DNA from: Haloarchaeobius salinus
Lineage (GTDB): Archaea; Halobacteriota; Halobacteria; Halobacteriales; Natrialbaceae
NCBI RefSeq assembly: GCF_024464185.1
Contig: NZ_JANHAU010000001.1
Coordinates: forward strand, 682,001 to 746,000
Direction: 5' to 3'
Length of the DNA: 64,000 bases
In this document: positions 9,886-59,443 of the stretch, in pieces
How the letters are laid out: each line of letters begins with the position of its first letter
Numbering within the stretch: the stretch's first letter is position 1
Made by a program: the position numbers and the translations under genes
The notes under the pieces: generated by a model
What the model was told of the DNA's origin: nothing
Database searches by the model: none
Seen by the model: the letters and a program-made list of their open reading frames with translations, nothing else

Positions 9886-9969
9886 CGTCTCTTTCGTCTT
9901 CCGTGTTGGTGTGTGGTCGATAAAGGCGTCCGGGTGGGTTCGGGAGCTGGAACTGGAATCACCAACAGT

Positions 9970-10269
9970 CAGAAAGCCCCGACGTGCTCGTCGGCTGCGA
10001 CTCGCTGTCGTTCGAAAGACGCCGGAGGCGTCTTTCGTGATGACGAGAGGGCTTCGCTCTCTCGAACCACGGTCCTCGTTCCTGCGGTCCTTGCGTCGTC
10101 TCGCTCGACGAGCACGTCGCCCCTTTCAATCCTACCCGCCCGCACAGCACCGCACCTCACACCTCCCCAGCCGACTGCGATGCTCGCTGCGCTTCTCGTC
10201 CCTCGCACGAGCGTCGGCGAGACACGCTCGCTGCGCTCGCGGTCTCGCCAGCCGCGCGCCACCCGGCTG
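9970..10269 (-). repeat. Palindromic intergenic element, copy A (full length, 300 bp)
   Basis: This is the best-preserved copy of a dispersed family in this window. On the minus strand it runs from the end hairpin CAGCCGGGTGGCGCGCGGCT to CTTTCTG. A conserved box GATTGAAAGGGG (about 10117-10128 read in reverse) is followed by a 14-bp arm at 10106-10119 that is perfectly complementary to the arm at 9980-9993. Between the arms lie the conserved core GACCGCAGGAACGAGGA and small perfect hairpins, including one of nine paired bases around 10015-10040 and GAGAGGGCTTCGCTCTCTC near 10045. No plausible haloarchaeal protein is encoded. It sits between two divergent genes. Confidence 0.8.
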
Positions 10270-10393
10270 TTCGGGTTCGTATCACTCTCAGTACAAAATC
10301 GCGCTTCAGGGAACGCCTATGGGGTGCGTGCGTCGAAAGTAGTGTGTGAGCCGCCCAGTCCTCCTCTCCGCTTCGGCCCTCCCCTCCGGCCCC

Positions 10394-13806: not shown

Positions 13807-13921
13807 GTCTGTGGGGTCGTGGGACGGGTCAATGAATCGTTCGTTCGCCAGGTGTGCCCGCTGGAATCGGTGCCGCTGGGATGGTAGTCCCCACAACAGG
13901 AACATCCTGGACTGCGAACGG

Positions 13922-13933
13922 CAGAAAGCCCCC
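13922..13933 (-). repeat. Solo terminal motif of the palindromic element family
   Basis: CAGAAAGCCCCC appears here alone, 45 bp before the same motif that ends element B at 13967. No inverted-repeat partner or internal module follows it. It is best read as the decayed stump of a further copy, and it shows that the terminal motif can persist by itself. Confidence 0.5.
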
Positions 13934-13966
13934 GTCATCAGTACGAACTCTCGCACCACGAACAGC

Positions 13967-14297
13967 CAGAAAGCCCCCGACTGCTCGACTACTGCGGCTC
14001 GCTGCGCTCCTCGTGCCTGCGGTGCTTGCTTCGCCTCGAACGTCGAGCAGTCGGCCCCCTTCAGTCCCACCCCACACAGCTCCGCACCTCGACCCTCCCC
14101 AGCCGACTGCGTCCCCGGAAATCGGAGATTTCCGGTGGGCTCACGAGACGCGAGCGTCTCGTGACCGCTCCTCACTGCGTTGCGGTGCCTGAGCGCTACG
14201 CGCTCAGACTCGCGGGAGCTTCGCTCCCGCGTCGCTCGCCCCTCGCGCGCTGAGAGGCTCGCGGCCTTCGGCACGCTCGCCAGCGCGCGCGCCAGCG
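13967..14297 (-). repeat. Palindromic intergenic element, copy B
   Basis: On the minus strand this copy has the conserved box GGTGGGACTGAAGGGGG, the core CACCGCAGGCACGAGGA and the terminus GGGGGCTTTCTG. The two 13-bp arms at 13977-13989 and 14042-14054 are perfectly complementary, but their sequence differs from copies A and F. Distal to the conserved part, 14111-14173 holds a 63-bp palindromic cassette identical to one found inside copy F. Further small hairpins follow (for example GAGCGCTACGCGCTC at about 14197). The distal CAGCC end hairpin was not found, so the outer boundary is approximate. Confidence 0.75.
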
Positions 14298-14300
14298 TCG

Positions 14301-14325
14301 AAAGTTTACAACTTTTGTAAACTTT
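14301..14325. repeat. AT-rich perfect palindrome (11-bp arms, 3-nt spacer)
   Basis: AAAGTTTACAA and TTGTAAACTTT form a perfect 11-bp inverted repeat around CTT. It is the most AT-rich short stretch in several kilobases and lies exactly between elements B and C, 397 bp before the UPF0104 gene. It could be an operator, a hairpin terminator or the scar of an insertion; the sequence alone does not decide. Confidence 0.7.
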
Positions 14326-14328
14326 GGA

Positions 14329-14530
14329 TGGTTCGACGACGCCGCCACCGGCCACACGGCCAAGACACCCCGCGCCGGCAGGCGCGTGGGTGTCGAGGGG
14401 GAGGGCTGGCGCGGTGCGGTCGCGGTGCTGTGCGGGGTGTCCCCGTGAGCGAGCCTGCGAGCGAACGGGGGCTCGTCGGAGCTTGCTCCGACGGTGGGAC
14501 TGAAAGCGGTGACGTGCCCGTCGAGCGAGC
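14329..14530 (+). repeat. Palindromic intergenic element, copy C (right half missing)
   Basis: Copy C lies in the plus orientation. About 150 bp (from CCACACGGCCAAGACACCCC at 14352 onward) match copy D at 27.6 kb almost base for base. At 14438-14494 it carries a 57-bp cassette (CCCCGTGAGCGAGCCTGCGA and its inverted partner, then a hairpin tipped GCTTGC) that copy F also has, and that copies A and B lack at the same junction. The box GGTGGGACTGAAAG follows at about 14492, but the second long arm and CTTTCTG terminus are absent. The remainder up to 14721 shows no gene. Confidence 0.72.
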
Positions 14531-14721
14531 CGACGTAGGCACCGGGACGGAGCGGGGAGTGCAACGGGCCACAGCCGACAATCACGTCGAACCTCGTGCC
14601 TGTCCGCGGCTCCCGCACGTCCCACGACTGTCGGGTCGTCCACCCACCCACACGCCGAGCAACCCACACTCCCGCCCGACCCAGGCGGTGGCTTCAAGCA
14701 TCCGACGGCCGACCTGTCACT

Positions 14722-27407: not shown

Positions 27408-27540
27408 AGCATCGAGTGTGGCCGGTGTGGGTTTAGTCGCGTCGAACCCGCTCTCGAAGTGTGGCGTGTAGCCTGTCCCTGCTCGTGATGCTGCGGGGTC
27501 AGTTCCGGCAGCGTGAGAACACGCTCGAACCGCGCATATC

Positions 27541-27745
27541 CAGGAAGCCCCGCGACGCTCGACTCGGGGGGCTCGCTCTGGTCCTCGTTCCTGCGGTCCG
27601 ACGAGCCCCCGTTCGTTCGCAGGCTCGCTCACGGGGACACCCACCGCGACGGCACCGCGCCAGCCCTCCCCCTCGACACCCACGCGCCTGCCGGCGCGGG
27701 GTGTCTTGGCCGTGTGGCTGGTGACCGCGTCGCCGAACCAGCCAG
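27541..27745 (-). repeat. Palindromic intergenic element, copy D
   Basis: Copy D lies between trmY and pus10 on the minus orientation. It shares about 150 bp with copy C, including CCACACGGCCAAGACACC and the paired CCCCGTGAGCGAGCC cassette half. It retains the core GACCGCAGGAACGAGGA and a modified terminus GGGGCTTCCTGG, but the GGTGGGACTGAAAG box and one long arm are deleted. The open frames through it (for example one reading SDEPPFVRRLAHGD) recur in copies C and F because the DNA recurs, not because a protein is conserved. Confidence 0.72.
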
Positions 27746-29300: not shown

Positions 29301-29355
29301 GTACACCTGCACTTCTTTCGAGACGCGAACTGACGGTGAGCGATTGCTATCTGAC

Positions 29356-29538
29356 CAGCCGGGTGGCGCGCGGCTGTCTCGGAATCGCGGAGCGATTCCG
29401 ATGGCCAGTGAGAGCTTGCTCTCACGCTGGCGAGCGTGCCGAGCGCAGCGAGTTCTCCGCGAACGCAGTGAGTGGAGGGCAGCGAGACGACGGAGGAGTC
29501 TCGCCAGTCTCCCGAGTCGAGACGGCCGGGGCTTTCTG
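29356..29538 (+). repeat. Palindromic intergenic element, copy E (short)
   Basis: Copy E runs from the end hairpin CAGCCGGGTGGCGCGCGGCT (identical to copy A's) to GGGGCTTTCTG, on the plus orientation. It is about 183 bp because the GGTGGGACTGAAAG box and the core are missing. Internal hairpins such as GGAATCGCGGAGCGATTCC and GTGAGAGCTTGCTCTCAC remain. The right arm GTCGAGACGGCC matches copy F's right arm, but no complementary left arm is left. It lies between the 38-residue gene and rnhB. Confidence 0.68.
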
Positions 29539-29622
29539 GCTGTTCCCGTCACCAGTCCACGACGAAACACAGCAACAAGCAACGAAAACGACCAAGAGAC
29601 CACACACGGAAACCCAGTACAG

Positions 29623-37163: not shown

Positions 37164-37185
37164 TCGCTGGATCTCGTTTTCTCAT

Positions 37186-37591
37186 CAGCCGGCAGGCGCG
37201 CGGCTGTGCTGCGTGTCGAGCACCGCGAGACCGCAGCACGAACTCGTGCGAGGTCTTCGGGAGTGCGAGCGACCGAAGGCTTGTGAGAGCTTGCTCTCAC
37301 AGTGGATGAGCGAGGGAGCCTGCGACCGAGCGAAGAGGCTGGGGAGCCGTGAGGTGCGGAACGGTTGCGGTCGGGGGTCCCCGTGAGCGAGCCTGCGAGC
37401 GAACGGGGGCTCGTCGGACCGCAGGTCCGACGGTGGGACTGAAAGGGGCGGCCGTCTCGACGGAGGCGGCCGAAGCAAGCACCGCAGGCACGAGGAGCGG
37501 TCACGAGACGCTCGCGTCTCGTGAGCCCACCGGAAATCTCCGATTTCCGGGGACGCAGCGAGGCCCCCGAGTCGAGACGGCGGGGGCTTTC
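37186..37591 (+). repeat. Palindromic intergenic element, copy F (406 bp, longest)
   Basis: Copy F runs from hairpin CAGCCGGCAGGCGCGCGGCT to CTTTC on the plus strand. Key parts are GGTGGGACTGAAAG (ending 37445), arm GCCGTCTCGAC at 37451-37461 pairing with GTCGAGACGGC at 37571-37581, and GAAAG 37441-37445 pairing with CTTTC 37587-37591. These enclose 5-base internal segments GGGCG and GGGGG. Cassette P (37378-37433) precedes the box, and the 63-bp cassette identical to copy B's sits at 37492-37554 inside the loop. It lies between the GNAT and SAMP1 genes. Confidence 0.8.
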
Positions 37592-37658
37592 GAGATGGTT
37601 CCAGTCCTCAGTCAGTCGTCTACCGAGTCGCATCTCGAACTACCAGAACCCTCTGAAT

Positions 37659-55876: not shown

Positions 55877-58800
55877 ATGGACGAGTTCCCCCGCGACCAA
55901 CGGACCCTCGACGTACTCACGAAGCGACTCGGTGTACTCCGTCGCCTCTGTGAGGGTGCGGCGTACAAGCGGGACCTGGTCGGCGAGCTCGACCAGTCCC
56001 GGTCGACCATCAACAGGGCCATCGACGACCTGGCGTCGGTCGACCTCGTCGAGCGCACGGACGACGGGTTCACCGCGACCCTCGCCGGGCGGCTGGCGCT
56101 GGAGCGGCTCGGGGCGTTCCAGATCGACCTCGACGACATCGTCGCCGCCGAGGCGGTCGTGGACCCGCTCCCGTTCGACGCGCCGCTCGACACCGCGGCC
56201 GTCGCCGGCAGCAGAGCGGTCCCCGCGACCGACCCCGCCCCGTACCGCCCGCTGGAGGGGTTCCACGACGACCTGGCGACCGCCACTCGCTACCGGGCGC
56301 TGCTGCCGTCGCTTGACGACCCCAGACACGTGCGGTTGCTGTACGAGCACGTCGCCACCGACGGGCGACCGGCCGAGCTGGTCGTCGCCCCCGAGGTGCT
56401 CGACACCCTCCGGTCGGAGTTCCCCCGGCGGATGGCGGCGATGGCCGAGGCTGACGGGTTCCGGTTGTTCGTCGGCGACGTCCCACCGTTCGCCCTCGCG
56501 CTTGTCGAGGACGAAGCCCCGACCGACGACGGAGCGCCGGTAGGTGGGTATCCCACCGACCCGGAGACGACCGTCCACGTCGTGGTGTTCGCCGAACGTG
56601 GCGGCGTCCACGGGACGCTGGCGAACGAGACCCACGAAGCGGTTCGGTGGGCGACGGAGCGGTACGATGCGGTCAGGGCCGATGCAGATGACCGGACGGA
56701 CGCGTTCCTCGCGGCCGACGCGACGACGCCTGTGGTCGACGCCGACGGCGGGGCAGTCGAGGGAGCGCCCGACACCGGTCTCCGCAATCAGCTGTCCGTC
56801 GCGCTCGAACGGGAAGGGTTCGTCCAGCTCGACGTCTCCTACTTCCGACACGAACCGGTCGCCGATCCACCGACCGCATGGCGGGCCGGACTCACACTCC
56901 CCGAGGTCCACACCGGCTACGCCGTCGCACGGACGCTACCCGACGGCGACGCCGACATGACCGAGCGGTTGCTCGGGGACCTGACCGCGGGGACGGACGT
57001 CGTGGTCGTCGGGCCGCCTGGGTCGGGCAAGAGCACCGTCTGCAAACACGTCGCCTGCGAGTGGTACGAGCGCGACCGCGGATCCGTCCTCTACCGTGAA
57101 GGGGGACGGGGCCGTCCGTTCGAATCCGTCGACGACCTCGCCGTGACCGCCGACATCGCCGACGGCCACACGCTCGTCGTCGTCGAGGACGCGGTGCGGT
57201 CGGACGCAGACGCGGTCTTCGACGCCCTCGAGCGGTTCGCCGACCGCGACGATGTGAGCGTCCTGCTCGACGCCCGCACGGCCGAGTGGCGGGACCCGCC
57301 CGGCGACGTCCGCGACCCGACCGGGCTGTCGGTTCACCACATGCCGACGCTGGGGGAAGCCGACGTCGAGCGGTTCGTCGAGGGATTCGAGCGGACAACC
57401 GACGAGGGGGTCGGCGCGTCGGTGGACGAACTACGGGCGGAGATCGCGGACGCGCCGGCCGACGACGCGGGCGCGCCCGGCGAGGTGCTCTTGCTGTTGC
57501 ACCGGCTGGCGACCTTCGCCGACCCGCTCGCCGAGGGGCCGACGTCGCTGGAGGCCGCCGTCGCCTCGGTACACGAGTCGCTCGCGGGTGACGACCTCGC
57601 GCTGGACGTCTGCACCCTCGTGAACGTGCTGAACGCGGCGGGAATCGGGGTACCGCCGCACGCGCTGTACGCTGTCGCCGACCCCGAGGAGTTCGACGGC
57701 GTCGACGCGGCCATCGAGCGCCTGGAGGGCCGTGTACTGTTCCCCCGCGACGACGGCAGCTACCGGACGGTCCACGAGTCGTGGTCGGTGACGTTCCTGG
57801 CCTACCTGCTCGACGCCGAGGGCGAGGCCCTCGCCGCCGAGCGGTTCGGCGACTGCCTCACCGCGCTCCTCTCGCTGGCGGACCACCCAGGCAGGCGCGA
57901 CCGGATCGCCCGCCACCACGACGAGGCACTCGCCCTCCCCGGACTCGTCGACGACCCCGGCGACTGGGCCGACGAGACGGCGGCGGCGCTCTACGCGCTC
58001 GGCCGGGAGCACCCAAAGCTCGCGCCGCTGTACGGCGGCGAGCGCGACAGCGTCGCCCTCCCGACCGCGTGCTCGGAGGACGTCGCCGAGGACCGCCCGA
58101 TCTGGGTCGGTCGGATGTTCCTCGACGCGGGTCGCTTCGACGACGCCGAACGCGCGTTCGAGCGCCTCCCCGCCGACGAGACCCGACACGCGTTCGAGCG
58201 GGCGTTCGGTCTCTCCCGGGTCGCCGACGGGCGCGGGAGGTACGACGCGGCCGTCGCCCACGCCGAGGAATGCCTCTCGCTGGCCGAGGAGCTGGGTGAC
58301 CGCGAACTCGGGGGACGAGCGGAGCGACGACTCGGCCGCGCGCTGGCCAACCGCGAGGAGTACGAGGCGGCGGACCCGCACCTCCGTCGGGCGCTCGAAT
58401 CCTTCGACTCGCTCGGGGACCGTCGCCGGGCGGCGACGACGCTCGACTACCTCGGCTCGGTCGCCCAGAGTCGCTCCGAGTACGGGACTGCCCGGGAGTA
58501 TCACCGGCGGAGCCTGGAGCTCTCGCGCGAGCTCGGCGACCGCCACGGCGAGGCCCGCAGCCTGGCGAACCTGGGGTCGGTCGCCCTGGGCCACACCGAG
58601 TTCGAGACCGCCCGAAAGCAGTACGAACGGAGCCTCGACATCCACCGCCGCCTCGGCAACCGCGACGCGGTCGCATCCGTACTCGAGAACATCGGGCTGG
58701 TCGCGCGTCACCAGGGCGAGTACGCCACCGCCGAGGAGTACCACGAGCGGAGCCTGGCAGTGAGCGAGGAGCTCGGTGACGCCCACGGGGAGGCTCGGAG

Positions 58801-59443
58801 CCTCGGGAACCTCGGGCTGCTCGCGAAGAAGCGCGACGAGTACGACGACGCGGTCGACTACTACGAGCGCACCCTCGAGATCCATCGGGAACTCGGGCTG
58901 CGCCACGGCGAGGCGAAGGCCTGCTGCAACCTGGCCGAGGCCGCGGTCCAGCAGGGCGACGCCGAGACGGCCCGGGAGTACGTCGAGCGCGCGAACGACG
59001 TCATGGAGGAGCTGGGCGACCGGAAGGGGCTGGCGATAACCGCGAACGTCCTCGGGGCGGCCCACCGCGAGGACGGCGCGTACGACGACGCCTGCGAGGA
59101 GTTCCGCCGGAGCATCGAGCTGTTCAGGTCGGTCGAGATTCCGCAGGGGCGGGCGGTCGCGCGCCGGAATCTCGGCGAGACACTGGCTGCGACCGGCGAG
59201 GTAGACGCGGCACGCGACCACTGGCGGACAGCCCTCGAGACGTTCGAGGCGGTCGCCGTCCCACAGGACGCTCTGGAGACGCTGGAACTGCTCGTCTGGA
59301 CCTGTCGTGTCGAGGACGACGACGAGACGGCCCTGCAGTGGTGCGAGCGCTCCCGGGAGCTCCTCGCAGATGCCTCCGACGCCGTCGTCGAGCGCCACCG
59401 GGGCTGGGTCGACCGGCAGCTCGACGACCTCGACGGAGACTGA
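55877..59443 (+). CDS. HTH-FilR1-STAND ATPase-TPR fusion protein
   Basis: This 1188-residue protein has a winged helix (about 1-80, SRSTINRAIDDLASVDLVER), a FilR1/DUF1724-like middle domain (about 120-260), a P-loop NTPase with Walker A GPPGSGKST at 379-387 and Walker B LVVVEDA near 432-438, then a winged-helix-like linker and about ten TPR units (about 740-1150, each with EYxxAxxYxxRSLxLxxELGD). The layout is MalT/AfsR-like: a STAND switch that binds DNA and senses ligands or partners through TPRs. It may regulate genes or act in defence. Confidence 0.88.
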   Translation: MDEFPRDQRTLDVLTKRLGVLRRLCEGAAYKRDLVGELDQSRSTINRAIDDLASVDLVERTDDGFTATLAGRLALERLGAFQIDLDDIVAAEAVVDPLPFDAPLDTAAVAGSRAVPATDPAPYRPLEGFHDDLATATRYRALLPSLDDPRHVRLLYEHVATDGRPAELVVAPEVLDTLRSEFPRRMAAMAEADGFRLFVGDVPPFALALVEDEAPTDDGAPVGGYPTDPETTVHVVVFAERGGVHGTLANETHEAVRWATERYDAVRADADDRTDAFLAADATTPVVDADGGAVEGAPDTGLRNQLSVALEREGFVQLDVSYFRHEPVADPPTAWRAGLTLPEVHTGYAVARTLPDGDADMTERLLGDLTAGTDVVVVGPPGSGKSTVCKHVACEWYERDRGSVLYREGGRGRPFESVDDLAVTADIADGHTLVVVEDAVRSDADAVFDALERFADRDDVSVLLDARTAEWRDPPGDVRDPTGLSVHHMPTLGEADVERFVEGFERTTDEGVGASVDELRAEIADAPADDAGAPGEVLLLLHRLATFADPLAEGPTSLEAAVASVHESLAGDDLALDVCTLVNVLNAAGIGVPPHALYAVADPEEFDGVDAAIERLEGRVLFPRDDGSYRTVHESWSVTFLAYLLDAEGEALAAERFGDCLTALLSLADHPGRRDRIARHHDEALALPGLVDDPGDWADETAAALYALGREHPKLAPLYGGERDSVALPTACSEDVAEDRPIWVGRMFLDAGRFDDAERAFERLPADETRHAFERAFGLSRVADGRGRYDAAVAHAEECLSLAEELGDRELGGRAERRLGRALANREEYEAADPHLRRALESFDSLGDRRRAATTLDYLGSVAQSRSEYGTAREYHRRSLELSRELGDRHGEARSLANLGSVALGHTEFETARKQYERSLDIHRRLGNRDAVASVLENIGLVARHQGEYATAEEYHERSLAVSEELGDAHGEARSLGNLGLLAKKRDEYDDAVDYYERTLEIHRELGLRHGEAKACCNLAEAAVQQGDAETAREYVERANDVMEELGDRKGLAITANVLGAAHREDGAYDDACEEFRRSIELFRSVEIPQGRAVARRNLGETLAATGEVDAARDHWRTALETFEAVAVPQDALETLELLVWTCRVEDDDETALQWCERSRELLADASDAVVERHRGWVDRQLDDLDGD

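Follow-up and report, generated by a model that had tools for sequence, protein, structure and literature searches.

Two intergenic elements within a 64,000-nucleotide stretch of the Haloarchaeobius salinus genome (the window), named copies B and F, carry an identical 56-bp unit. This unit is probably a small non-coding mobile repeat of two hairpins that inserts into a larger modular hairpin element, with homologous exchange spreading the modules. The identity of the unit in the two copies, its fixed target, its clean presence or absence at orthologous sites, its unrelated surroundings in other genera and the nesting of further units were demonstrated directly. The remainder of the mechanism is inferred. 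The two-hairpin repeat, widespread in Halobacteria, would enter G-[G/C]-A-N-C^GC in the hairpin core of the larger repeat, exactly and without duplication, and most events would be insertions rather than losses. Recombination among the many copies would then spread both the cassette and whole domains, while template switching at DNA palindromes may keep the arms complementary and flip the loops.

The cassette and its insertion site

Positions 37492-37558 of the window (plus strand) were identical over 67 bp to 14173-14107 on the minus strand (self-BLAST, E = 2e-23). The 63-bp identity between 37492-37554 and the reverse complement of 14111-14173, described in an earlier note on this DNA, was thus exact and ran four bases further. 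Outside the shared stretch there were no further matching bases on the left, and the 40-bp flanks of B and F matched at only 14/40 and 14/40 ungapped positions, so that the identity ended abruptly. Since the same query matched nine places in the genome over 67-75 bp each (E < 1e-15), the identity between B and F is not due to chance. Side-by-side comparison of the copies placed the edges of the movable unit at 37499-37554 in F (plus strand) and 14111-14166 in B (minus strand), giving a unit of 56 bp instead of the 63 bp first assigned to it. The remaining bases, GAGGAGC on the left (37492-37498, plus strand, in agreement with the target consensus of 30 copies) and GCAG on the right, are shared insertion context, because relatives lacking the unit read GAGGA[G/C]C-GCAG; these empty relatives also defined the junction in F. 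We labelled this cassette m1, and the labels m2, m3, e and S1 for other kinds were likewise coined in this analysis. The cassette had been called palindromic; it does form hairpins, though not as one palindrome but as two consecutive hairpins (CACGAGACG/CGTCTCGTG and CCGGAAATC/GATTTCCGG). According to sequence and folds, hairpin 1 spans 37502-37523 and hairpin 2 spans 37530-37550 (both plus strand), and in B and F alike their apices are CTCG and TCC, respectively. What the two ends of the cassette have in common is limited to GCG/CGC in this genus and to GCGT/ACGC in other genera.

In both B and F the cassette follows GGAGC and precedes GC. GGAGC forms one side of a conserved stem of 5 bp that contains an A.A mismatch and is present in each of the element's two domains. 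In copy F the right-hand domain carries the cassette, 3′ to the GGAGC arm; in copy B the left-hand domain carries it, following GAGGAGC and just ahead of GGCTGGGGAGG. The two insertions therefore do lie at different places of the element, as had been claimed, but the local sequence is equivalent. The earlier note had proposed listing the insertion points in search of a fixed target motif or of repeats at the junctions. In 30 copies, taken from four genomes that belong to a single genus, the insertion points shared the motif G-[GC]-A-N-C^GC, with G at -5 (30/30), G or C at -4 (30/30), A at -3 (29/30), C at -1 (30/30), G at +1 (29/30) and C at +2 (27/30). No target-site duplication was seen at the clean junctions, either between full and empty orthologous sites or in the 30 insertion points. 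The proposal that the element takes up or exchanges small cassettes with a clean junction is supported by this fixed motif together with the full and empty orthologous sites, and we infer that cassettes additionally travel with whole domains through recombination. With no target duplication and no long terminal repeats, the cassette does not fit the description of a MITE, a judgement made without comparison to the resident transposons.

The host repeat and its hairpins

The host is a dispersed, intergenic, modular and hairpin-rich repeat family. Its motifs run from an optional AT-rich palindrome p through a gap of about 40 bp to hairpin A (GGCGCGCGGCTGG), a variable loop, GGCTGGGGAGG, motif K (GTGGGACTGAAAGGGGC), a long stem P1, a conserved core, P1′ and motif T (GGGGCTTTCTGGCTG). 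The stretch between two stop codons in which copy F lies spans 37164-37657 (plus strand, from comparison with G002, G004 and G005). Copy F comprises motif K (GTGGGACTGAAAGGGGC, 37433-37449, supported by matches in the genome collection), the 5′ arm of P1 (37450-37461, covarying helix 2), the 3′ arm of P1 (37571-37581, by covariation) and motif T (GGGGGCTTTC, 37582-37591), whose CTTTC pairs with GAAAG of K. The intergenic stretch with copy B (13853-14657, minus strand) consists of an inverted half-element joined to a full element. Its right domain (K to T, 13969-14070) has no cassette, and a palindrome p (AAAGTTTACAAAAGTTGTAAACTTT) was recognised by sequence at 14301-14325. The window also holds copy A (9953-10275, minus strand), with the different two-hairpin cassette m2, the partial copy C (27519-27744, minus strand), which matches copy B in inverted orientation over 156 bp (90%), and the partial copy E (29350-29565, plus strand), with a cassette of type m3. 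The predicted fold of copy B reached z = -11.2; that of copy F alone (z = -2.8) was little informative.

Several further features of the family were observed. The palindrome GTTTACAA..TTGTAAAC (window 14301-14325 and many other loci) is AT-rich in a genome of 70% GC, precedes motif A by about 40 bp in some of the copies, and could be a promoter or a protein site. Some elements are paired head to head (L059, L062, L068 and window 13853-14657), and p lies near the centre of some pairs (L062, copy B). A second type of left domain (..CACGGCCAAGACACCCCGCGCC..GGGGGAGGGCTGG) is joined to the usual right domain at window 14330-14430 (minus strand), L051, L059, L062 and G002 C3 ~157900-158300. A 45-bp T unit (GGGGCTTTCTGGCTGTT..) is doubled, with a spacing, at the right end of some elements (L061/L308, window 13930-13990, L043 and L050).

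Motif K was present in at least 120 stretches of the genome collection, and nearly all of the 80 matches listed were titled Halobacteria. K may perhaps resemble the end of haloarchaeal CRISPR repeats. A model of the right domain matched 122 of 145 Halobacteria genomes and 51 of 59 genera; in a phylum-wide draw it matched 15 of 16 Halobacteria (our own genome being included in both searches) and none of the 84 genomes of other classes. As at most 28 candidates per genome were scored in the 145-genome search and at most 40 in the phylum-wide draw, copy numbers are minimum values, and copies that contain large inserts receive lower scores. Rfam gave no match in the window, and the best match in three further loci (E = 0.86) was far below the gathering score, which ruled out a known RNA. 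A structured repeat family has thus spread through Halobacteria without being covered by any Rfam model. Among open-licence PMC papers we found no description of it, an earlier account elsewhere remaining possible, and the available passages of PMC12306157 and PMC2841640 do not mention the family. A virus-borne element was ruled out, as no match was found in a phage collection. Separately, four viral-contig stretches (L260-L263) matched a pattern built on motif K.

In the right domain (24 copies), 19 of 31 pairs showed changes on both sides, and 96.1% of the cells were paired, compared with 76.7% after shuffling and 35-47% after sliding. This covariation, together with invariant internal loops and the position of p some 40 bp upstream of motif A in some copies, where it could act as a promoter, would be expected if the elements encoded a structured regulatory RNA with peripheral hairpins that are free to vary. 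We regard such a role as improbable, since G-U pairs are almost absent, the loops occur in both orientations, whole copies are missing in sister species, Rfam offers no counterpart and the copies have no preferred orientation to genes. The genes flanking 36 copies were convergent in 11 cases, divergent in 9, tandem in 10 and undetermined in 6; these mixed orientations also ruled out a terminator or gene-end signal. Among the 30 cassette copies, hairpin-2 apices came as reverse-complement pairs (TCC/GGA in 10 and 3 copies, TTC/GAA in 4 and 3, TCT/AGA in 6 and 2), with one GTA and one that could not be read. In the right domain, 5 of the 715 paired cells were G-T, and in the m1 cassettes (28 of the 30 copies) there were 4 G-T against 490 Watson-Crick pairs. 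As a control, 18 of 237 pairs in 11 tRNAs were G-U; because ARAGORN brackets omit mismatches, only this G-U share, and not the mismatch count, provides a fair comparison. Template switching at inverted repeats is described in PMC8604942 and PMC8794818 as homogenising the arms and inverting the spacers. The loops found in both orientations point to template switching at DNA palindromes, and flipped loops with few G-T pairs fit this process, so that covariation is less convincing as proof of a functional RNA. The homogenised arms and inverted loops described there are alike in our repeats, although those accounts (PMC8794818, PMC8604942) concern RNA genes and a yeast coding sequence, and the process explains the hairpins but not the insertion of cassettes. 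More generally, such DNA-level evidence means that strong covariation need not imply a functional RNA.

Turnover, exchange and spread of the cassette

At the locus of copy F, only 20 bp separate the flanking genes in G002 and G004, and only the ends of the element are found in G005. Beside the genes next to copy B, the element of G002 and G004 contains no such cassette, and that of G005 carries a longer one, located in the other domain. A cassette present at both sites in all relatives would have refuted the idea of uptake, according to the earlier note. This was not the case, F being absent or reduced in three sisters and the B-locus cassette missing or differently placed. Between the orthologues L070 (without) and L287 (with), the cassette is the only difference at the site, both 20-bp flanks being identical. 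L064 and L288 are distinguished by the cassette and also by both P1 arms, which change together, as if the whole domain had been replaced, and L056/L307 and others are further orthologous pairs with and without a cassette. Comparison of orthologous loci gave 34 indels with a length of at least 35 bp, and in nine of them each flank (up to 20 bp) was identical at 95% or more of its positions. Eight of these nine contained two or four predicted hairpins, and the ninth was a second copy of the 45-bp T unit. Gain or loss of cassettes between sister species is therefore real, even though the events are unrooted, the polarity is unproved and some cases may be losses.

The host repeat thus differs in its make-up from species to species through gain or loss of the cassette. 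Across the four genomes, m1, or a variant close to it, was present in 14 of 27 orthologous groups, and just one of these 14 had it in two genomes. The loci had been picked by similarity to F, so that those bearing m1 are over-represented, and the genus relatives are mostly draft genomes. The same pattern could arise from an ancestral cassette that was repeatedly and precisely deleted, and L070 (G000) does lack a cassette that both its orthologue L287 and the near-identical domain L042 (G000) carry. We consider this very improbable, because orthologous sharing is so rare and because one site holds different cassettes in different species: at the same point of the L042 locus, G000 has m1, G005 has m2, and the site is empty in G002 and G004. 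Moreover, exact loss at the same edges would need a mechanism of its own, and no direct repeat fits the junction.

Cassettes were nested as well. A further hairpin pair lay between the two hairpins of m2 (L047, L308 and L310) and of m1 (L322), and m2 exists with and without the inner pair. It is possible, though we advance it only tentatively, that Halobacteria carry a class-wide set of nested DNA-hairpin cassettes, in which several two-hairpin kinds occupy fixed motifs in a conserved frame, receive further units between their hairpins and turn over faster than species divide. If this is true, nested cassettes would constitute a self-similar (recursive) mobile architecture that is read as folded single-stranded DNA. 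They would then be loosely comparable to integron attC sites.

Recombination between copies has also shaped the family. The window segment at ~14.65-27.6 kb is inverted in G004 between the same neighbours and is rearranged relative to G002 and G005. The ends of the inversion lie in copies B and C, which share the 156-bp inverted match, indicating that the repeats act as crossover points. Whole right domains were exchanged between loci, the domain of L042 (G000) resembling that of L287, which lies at another locus in G002. Nearest-neighbour cassettes lay in the same context in 16.3 of 30 cases, compared with 9.3 when labels were shuffled (6 of 1000 shuffles reached the observed value). Part of the cassette spread is hence inheritance or exchange within one context, and the test shows exchange within a context along with many moves across contexts. 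These observations could be taken to mean that there is no mobile cassette at all, and that the repeats are mosaics made by gene conversion between copies through flanking homology. Domains swapped as a whole (both P1 arms in L064/L288; L042 being like L287), flanks conserved within one context, neighbours sharing a context above chance and an inversion (14.65-27.7 kb) ending in copies B and C are all what such conversion would produce. Gene conversion as the sole process nevertheless seems unlikely, as the cassettes of B and F share only 7 + 4 bp of flank, and cassettes also occur where the neighbouring sequence is unrelated, as well as in four genomes that the right-domain model does not match (G038, G059, G088 and G089).

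A 75-bp cassette query found related cassettes in 28 of 97 Halobacteria and 23 of 45 genera, and many matches ended at the cassette edges. The surroundings read at 11 loci were mostly unrelated to the host repeat, traces of which were present in two (L368 and L371). From its occurrence in such surroundings and in the four genomes with no right-domain match, we conclude on sequence grounds that the cassette would be mobile in its own right.

Neighbouring transposons and known small mobile elements

The enzyme that would move the cassette was not identified. TnpB of IS605 type (Pfam) accounted for 4 of the 10 neighbouring proteins scanned, the ends of those elements not having been mapped. A query of one cassette with its flanks matched 46 plasmid records, and six of these regions were opened. 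In one, from Haladaptatus, a cassette-like hairpin pair adjoins a tnpA of ISHmu6 type, and in another the cassette adjoins an IS605 transposase gene. The other four had no IS605 gene annotated beside the cassette; one of them has an unspecified transposase ~1.3 kb away and one a transposase of IS6 type. Insertion that is exact, causes no duplication and takes place beside a fixed 5′ motif, along with the hairpins and the TnpB neighbourhood, suggests, as a first candidate, a Y1 (IS200/IS605-type) single-strand transposase acting in trans. The corresponding domain, PF01797, which a Y1-mobilised repeat of the REP/RAYT type would require in its host genomes, was present in 11 of 18 genomes, including G000, G002 and G005, but it was not found in the draft assemblies of G004 and G019, though both carry repeats. 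Consequently, transposition of this type remains no more than a guess, and one that we would not rate as the expected outcome.

The small mobile repeats SMR-A and SMR-B of Haloquadratum walsbyi (PMC3119063) measure ~80-110 bp and bear inverted repeats at their termini, which are prominent in SMR-A. SMR-A inserts into palindromes of IS605-type elements and of PATEs, by an unknown mode of movement. SMRs and our cassette are alike in being short and non-coding, in having neither a transposase of their own nor target duplication, in an apparent preference for other mobile elements and in moving by unknown means. The cassette differs in its length of 56-60 bp, its two hairpins, its ends sharing 3-4 bp, its fixed G-S-A-N-C^GC target and its host, which is another repeat family. 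It meets the SMR-A criteria of being too short for a transposase (56 bp) and of lacking target duplication. The prominent inverted terminal repeats, however, are absent from its ends, and for this reason we do not file it as a member of the SMRs, although it works like one. PATEs and IS200/IS605-type elements (PMC3119063) have near-terminal palindromes and no target duplication, as the cassette does; unlike them, the cassette has no gene and no proven IS605 end, its relation to IS605 resting on neighbourhood only. How gene-less mobile repeats move, and why they aim at mobile elements, is the puzzle raised by Haloquadratum. It becomes testable here, since orthologous sites are available both with and without the unit, together with a target motif and recent copies that are almost identical.

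BIME and ERIC are likewise modular interspersed repeats. BOX elements of streptococci (PMC3049150) and REP elements (PMC12306157) resemble the present family in their many intergenic copies, strong hairpins and variable number of modules in a conserved frame. The family described here stands apart in that several kinds of cassette enter fixed points, nest and differ between orthologues of sister species, and in that it spans a class.

Finally, self-BLAST of the window revealed diverged direct repeats at 58240-59217, about 57% alike over several hundred bases and located inside a long open frame.
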